Positions 17,729 to 17,868 of a stretch of DNA of 64,000 nt are shown in pieces (position 1 is the stretch's first letter; every line of letters begins with the position of its first letter). Position numbers and translations under genes: made by a program. Source of the DNA: Acidimicrobiales bacterium (GTDB taxonomy: Bacteria; Actinomycetota; Acidimicrobiia; Acidimicrobiales; RAAP-2); the NCBI GenBank assembly GCA_017883135.1, contig JADGOE010000002.1, positions 36,580 through 100,579 on the forward strand, given 5' to 3'. Under the pieces are notes generated by a model. It made no database searches. It was not told the DNA's origin and saw nothing but the letters and a program-made list of their open reading frames with translations.

Positions 17729-17760
17729 AAAAAACCCCCTGGCCATTATGGCTCAGGAGG
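17729..17760 (-). terminator. leuA leader attenuator (intrinsic terminator)
   Basis: On the minus strand CCUCCUGAGCC pairs with GGCCAGGGGG around an AUAAU loop, with one bulged A, followed by six U. It is a strong intrinsic terminator placed 31 bases after the leader peptide stop and about 100 bases before the leuA start. A second hairpin (GGCGA...UCGCC) sits between the leader stop and the terminator. Confidence 0.85.
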
Positions 17761-17790
17761 TAGCGGGCGAACGCGATGTGGCGCTCGCCG

Positions 17791-17829
17791 TTAGGTAAGA
17801 AGGAGTTCCGAGGTCGACGCTACGTACAT
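17791..17829 (-). CDS. leuL: leuA leader peptide MYVASTSELLLT
   Basis: A 12-codon ORF not in the track as its own entry. GGAAGG stands four bases before its ATG. The codons before Thr-stop are CTC CTT CTT, three leucines in a row using codons that are uncommon in this GC-rich genome. Ribosome stalling at these codons under leucine shortage would let the leader avoid the terminator at 17729-17760, as in classical leu operon attenuation. An in-frame ATG four codons upstream (MEGI-) lacks a ribosome site. Confidence 0.82.
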   Translation of the reverse strand: MYVASTSELLLT

Positions 17830-17839
17830 GATGCCTTCC

Positions 17840-17868
17840 ATGGTGCCAGGACCGCCTCGGCACGTCAA
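17840..17868 (-). promoter_or_regulatory. leuA promoter
   Basis: Minus-strand TTGACG (17868-17863), a 17-base spacer and CACCAT (17845-17840). Transcription would begin just before the leader peptide's ribosome site. The -35 is good and the -10 weak; placement is supported by the leader gene immediately downstream. Confidence 0.5.

Follow-up and report, generated by a model that had tools for sequence, protein, structure and literature searches.

A probable ribosome-dependent, leucine-sensing transcription attenuator upstream of leuA in an Acidimicrobiales bacterium

The leuA locus and its leader

The window, meaning the whole stretch of 64,000 nucleotides that was analysed, carries leuA on its minus strand (15850..17631). 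Translation of this gene gives a 2-isopropylmalate synthase of 593 aa (NF002991, E=4e-257; TIGR00970 above cut-off). The best start is the GTG at 17631, with AAGGGAG upstream at 17646-17640. The upstream neighbour is a glutamine-synthetase-like gene (17973-19484), for which TIGR03105 was the best match, yet below its cut-off. An open frame of 567 codons runs antisense to leuA on the plus strand (15844-17547) and is probably a spurious frame caused by high GC content. Also on the plus strand, at 13191-13872, stands a VapB antitoxin gene (PF09957). The next ORF overlaps it and looks like a PIN-domain toxin gene; the test covered VapB alone.

The leader element occupies positions 17868-17729 of the minus strand and ends 98 nt upstream of leuA. 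The original prediction had placed a promoter-like TTGACG/CACCAT pair here, and this was recovered on the minus strand with a spacing of 17 nt. The -35 element TTGACG (17868..17863) was assigned by sequence, and the pattern TTGAC-N16..18-nAnnnT stands upstream of 92 of 181 leaders. The -10 element CACCAT (17845..17840) lies 10 nt 5' of the leader ATG. The predicted short peptide ending in LLLT was likewise seen: a leader ORF of 12 codons, MYVASTSELLLT, extends from the ATG at 17829 to the TAA at 17791, and the arrangement L(3-4)-X-stop is kept in relatives. Its putative sensor codons CTC CTT CTT (Leu-Leu-Leu) are located at 17805..17797.

Two hairpins follow, as had been predicted, and both covary in relatives. 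The first, P1 (GGCGAGCGC CACATC GCGTTCGCC, 17789..17766), begins 1 nt after the leader stop, has 9 bp and reaches -16.1 kcal/mol when folded alone; two-sided changes were found in 6 of its 9 pairs. A linker of four bases (17765..17762; 0-4 nt in 180/188 elements) leads to the predicted intrinsic terminator T (17761..17729). The stem of T, ACCTCCTG-A-GCCATAATGGC-CAGGGGGT, spans 17761-17734 and continues into U6 (17734-17729). Its folding probability is 1.00, its energy folded alone is -18.5 kcal/mol, and its pairs are kept in 98-100% of cells. Promoter and terminator were both missed by a consensus scanner, because the -10 element fits TATAAT poorly and the T stem has a bulge.

A ribosome site had also been predicted, and this claim did not hold. 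The sequence in question, GGAAGG (17839-17834), lies at or upstream of the predicted transcription start. A Shine-Dalgarno site is not conserved among the leaders, and an SD-like 5-mer was present in just 11 of 181. Where a promoter is recognisable, the distance from the end of the -10 element to the start codon is 7-10 nt in 81/92 leaders. The leader mRNA is thus probably nearly leaderless, with a predicted start at the start codon or a few bases from it. Leaderless leader peptides occur in Streptomyces lividans (PMC8079986) and in Corynebacterium (PMC11857589); such a start is therefore an actinobacterial habit and nothing new.

Conservation of the element and choice of sensor codons

This leader is the sole ORF in the 64 kb with LLL among its last five codons. 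DNA similarity by itself suffices to find it in relatives. A covariance model, R1, was built on 33 leaders from relatives and comprises 20 base pairs. It scored 96.7 bits at the window leader, compared with 14.6 bits at the next-best place in the genome. Two-sided changes were found in 8 of the 20 pairs, and the covariation score was reached by none of 500 shuffles. When the pairing partners were slid, the covariation signal dropped sharply. Clear matches were obtained in 38/40 near relatives, with one weak match, in G022, set aside. In the class Acidimicrobiia, 146 of 296 genomes contained model matches (E <= 0.001, strict filters). At the level of the phylum, 44/397 genomes matched at E <= 0.01, some of them in other classes, and the weakest of these matches were false. 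Named loci assign the lineage to Acidimicrobiaceae/Acidimicrobiales; among these loci, matches before leuA were actinobacterial and none was proteobacterial.

Five of 197 model matches were dropped as false (L294, L301, L297, L298 and L300), leaving 192. Of these five, L294 and L301 belong to leuS-type synthetase genes; they resemble T-box leaders (GGTGGTACCGCG or a similar sequence) and matched weakly via their terminators. In the window itself no Rfam T-box match was obtained, and no Rfam 15 family scored above its gathering threshold. A description of the element was not found in the literature searched, a search that reached few subscription papers.

The original prediction had proposed to look for the Leu codons in relatives, and the result was in its favour. 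A Leu-run leader was present in 54 of 56 upstream regions, nearly all of leuA and one of leuS. In the alignment of relatives, codon positions 1 and 2 of the Leu runs are almost invariant, and position 3 varies freely. The free third positions argue that selection acts on the meaning of the codons. Two leuA genes lack the element (L062 and L063, families f18 and f24). Their leaders are others, MSFLLDLRLLSPAA and VRIELLALRLMHPAS; the GC-rich structure there is of another kind and a U run is missing, and these may be true LEU elements.

Across all 197 model matches a Leu run was found in 181, with 3-5 Leu in the run in 175 of them; the others had mostly Ile/Val/Leu/Phe codons or were false matches. 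CTT accounts for 38% of the leader Leu codons, whereas the leuA genes of these genomes use it for 7%. This roughly fivefold enrichment fits a sensor that uses a rare codon.

We then compared the leaders with the genes behind them. Among the 192 accepted matches, 170 precede a gene of the isopropylmalate synthase cluster: 103 window-type leuA, 59 leuA of another type that shares about 30% identity with the window type, 2 citramalate synthases and 6 that were not typed further. The rest comprise leuS (10), ilvB (6), leuB (2), pheA (1) and three single loci, of which L073 is leuA by its first residues and L216 is a contig end. The third, L211 (G374:C78), is the sole exception among the typed matches to branched-chain or phenylalanine genes downstream. 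Here a P1-terminator pair stands before an aspartate-glyoxylate-type aminotransferase gene, and no sensor codons are evident in the candidate leader, VKLTRRSNK.

The codons follow the gene. Leaders of leuA and leuS have Leu runs. Leaders of cimA, the citramalate synthase of the isoleucine pathway, end before the stop codon in TEIIIN and TILIIP. Those of ilvB end in ITLVLID, NLVLIT and RRLVVVVP (Val/Leu/Ile), and those of leuB in SVIVIP and QIVVIP. The single pheA leader, L295 (G507:C67), precedes a prephenate dehydratase gene and reads RHFTFP, with Phe codons; the frame of this gene breaks after 49 codons in the contig. A second member was found in the window's own genome before ilvB, the acetolactate synthase gene (L350, G000:C22, approximately 1291-1406). 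Its leader is MWCSPFRPVNALVLVS, ending ALVLVS before the stop, and its P1 and T are placed as in the window element. Inspection by eye revealed no member before leuS or pheA in this genome.

One RNA thus serves as leader to genes that share a metabolic field but are only distantly related or not related at all. The matching of codons to genes, the freedom of the third positions and the CTT enrichment are the strongest arguments for a translating ribosome that would read the leader, and they support the sensing of amino acids by a ribosome. The central proposal of a leucine attenuation leader of leuA was borne out in that Leu codons, hairpin and terminator are all conserved and the codon identity follows the downstream gene.

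Proposed mechanism and alternative readings

Based on these observations, the element is very probably a transcription attenuator of leuA that senses leucine by way of a ribosome. A ribosome would translate the nearly leaderless mRNA from its first bases. When leucyl-tRNA is scarce, it would stall on CTC CTT CTT, P1 would stay folded and the polymerase would continue into leuA. When leucyl-tRNA is plentiful, the ribosome would reach the stop codon and cover the 5' arm of P1; P1 would open, T would close and transcription would end. Sequence and comparison show the anatomy, the conservation, the match of codons to pathways and, in folding calculations, the toggling of P1 with the ribosome position. 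We infer that T terminates and in which direction the gene responds, and the blocking of T by P1 is the most inferential part of the scheme.

The switch was analysed by folding with an imposed ribosome footprint at the first Leu codon, at the third Leu codon, at the stop codon or with none. In the window, the pairing probability of P1 is 1.0 with the ribosome at Leu1 or Leu2, 0.94 at Leu3 and 0 at Thr or at the stop. The gap between stop codon and P1 is 0-1 nt in 180/188 elements, and both this distance and that from P1 to T look constrained. A close strong hairpin upstream of the terminator was present in 172 of 192 elements and in 14 of 51 other terminators. This control is rough and small; its 14 positives include one true element (L126), and some of the control terminators may not be real.

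Two further ideas were tried and rejected. Frameshifting or stop readthrough into T was dropped, as the downstream frames are open about equally (49, 46 and 43 of 54). Mimicry of SD and anti-SD sequences by the T arms (CCUCCU/AGGAGG) is not required, as compensated arm changes occur elsewhere (ACCGUCCGC/GCGGGCGGU in L307).

Given the usual sense of regulation and a P1 that is intact in starvation, P1 must oppose T. Since P1 and T have no bases in common, we propose that blocking occurs by abutment. A rigid P1 located 0-4 nt away would be unable to enter the RNA exit channel, and the foot of the T stem would stay open. Taken on its own, this last step, with P1 as an antiterminator by abutment, is plausible but tentative. 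T folds equally well at all ribosome positions, and base pairing alone would not prevent termination in starvation. Direct precedents for abutment were not found in the literature searched; the C. glutamicum ilvBNC attenuator comes closest. The element may further stand for a class of two-hairpin attenuators, a generalization that we regard as rather doubtful at present. In such a class the antiterminator would share no base with T and block it by abutting, a ribosome at the stop would remove the hairpin, and Leu, Ile, Val and Phe codons would be exchangeable on one chassis.

Alternatively, P1 could serve for pausing, like the hairpin of the trp leader: the polymerase would halt some 10 bases past it and wait for the leader ribosome to arrive and open P1. 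How far the ribosome is from the polymerase, or else a factor, would then decide at T, and P1 would not. The sequence agrees with this in part: 171/188 elements have a C/T-G step 9-13 nt after P1, the full G-10 Y-1 G+1 pattern was present in 80/188, and the short P1-T linker fits as well. However, the full pattern is thus found in under half of the elements, and the conserved T stem itself provides the C/T-G step. Moreover, with no antiterminator in this model the starvation response stays unexplained, and we consider it unlikely.

The textbook design for leu, trp and ilv is the four-strand attenuator, and antiterminators have been described for the trp, leuS and ilvB attenuators of actinobacteria (PMC1262725, PMC11857589). 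The original prediction had called the present leader classical in this sense, had asked for a fold of alternative antiterminator pairings and had named the lack of a mutually exclusive antiterminator as refuting the claim. Folding and covariation gave no such antiterminator. T formed with probability 1.00 in every ribosome state, both in the window and, with few exceptions, in the 54 sequences that were folded. The exceptions were L027, for which the ribosome position was not called, and L030, L055, L056 and L072, with values of 0.68-0.99 in some states. Unbiased column-by-column covariation in two alignments (192 sequences, false matches removed) recovered P1 and T (z up to 25) but no further helix that forms a stack. 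In addition, pairing does not hold the Leu codons, given that their third positions vary. The four-strand design is not supported by these models. That an antiterminator was missed by the folding programs, being a pseudoknot or a weak transient helix, seems improbable.

The actinobacterial LEU element offers a further reading, in which the Leu run and the leuA SD form a duplex and a pseudoknot acts on translation or serves as a protein-binding site. Both elements combine leuA with a Leu-run leader peptide (PMC1262725), and CTCCTT of the window can pair with AGGGAG at 17645-17640. Yet in 103 leuA relatives a duplex between the Leu run and the downstream sequence was no better than in shuffled sequences (mean z = +0.19). 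Covariation in the 192 sequences yields two separate hairpins only. P1 is a plain hairpin, and the intrinsic terminator seen here is absent from LEU elements. We regard this reading as very improbable. That T is an unregulated terminator which ends a small gene and does not respond to leucine is hardly credible: T is strong in isolation, but the element recurs with matching codons before distant leuA types, leuS, ilvB, cimA and pheA.

Significance and comparison with known systems

The leader suggests a regulatory assignment of leucine to leuA and leuS, branched-chain amino acids to ilvB, isoleucine to cimA and phenylalanine to pheA. This assignment spans a class of mostly uncultured bacteria, in which gene finders miss the leader entirely, and the RNA family is ready for databases. 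If abutment by P1 is true, attenuation would be possible without alternative base pairing. It would also help to explain several actinobacterial leaders that have been described as missing attenuator parts, and amino-acid sensors could be built with it as a simple, exchangeable module.

Judged by its anatomy in the sequence, the element is a ribosome-mediated attenuator, with a leader ORF containing end-product codons and an intrinsic terminator before the gene. It is neither a LEU element nor a classical four-strand attenuator. With the enterobacterial trp, leu and his attenuators it has in common leader-peptide runs of the sensed amino acid and a terminator before the structural genes. Those attenuators have SD-dependent leaders and a 2:3 antiterminator, neither of which was found in the window element.

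The LEU element (Seliverstov et al. 2005, PMC1262725) is likewise located upstream of leuA. It has a predicted pseudoknot, pairing between Leu run and SD and no terminator, whereas the window element has a plain hairpin, an intrinsic terminator and no such pairing. For S. coelicolor, mutations in the leuA leader are cited as not fitting the predictions of classical attenuation (Craster 1999, as cited in PMC1262725). The leader peptide leuL1 of S. lividans, MRFGLLLLSCRGEGL, is leaderless (PMC8079986). Streptomyces leuL2 before leuS (PMC1262725, PMC8079986) likewise has an LLL leader, which is leaderless, followed by a hairpin and a U run. In contrast to the present element, leuL2 is described with an antiterminator; the gene in the window is leuA, although some relatives carry the present element before leuS.

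The Corynebacterium ilvBNC attenuator with the ilvB-II motif (PMC11857589, PMC10272879) likewise has branched-chain codons and one or more hairpins before a U-tailed terminator. Its transcription start is one base from the leader start, and its regulation was shown experimentally (PMC11857589, PMC10272879). In ilvBNC, antiterminator and terminator overlap by three bases, the trinucleotide GCC, and the leader ORF overlaps P1 (PMC11857589). In the window element, P1 lies after the stop codon and has no base in common with T.
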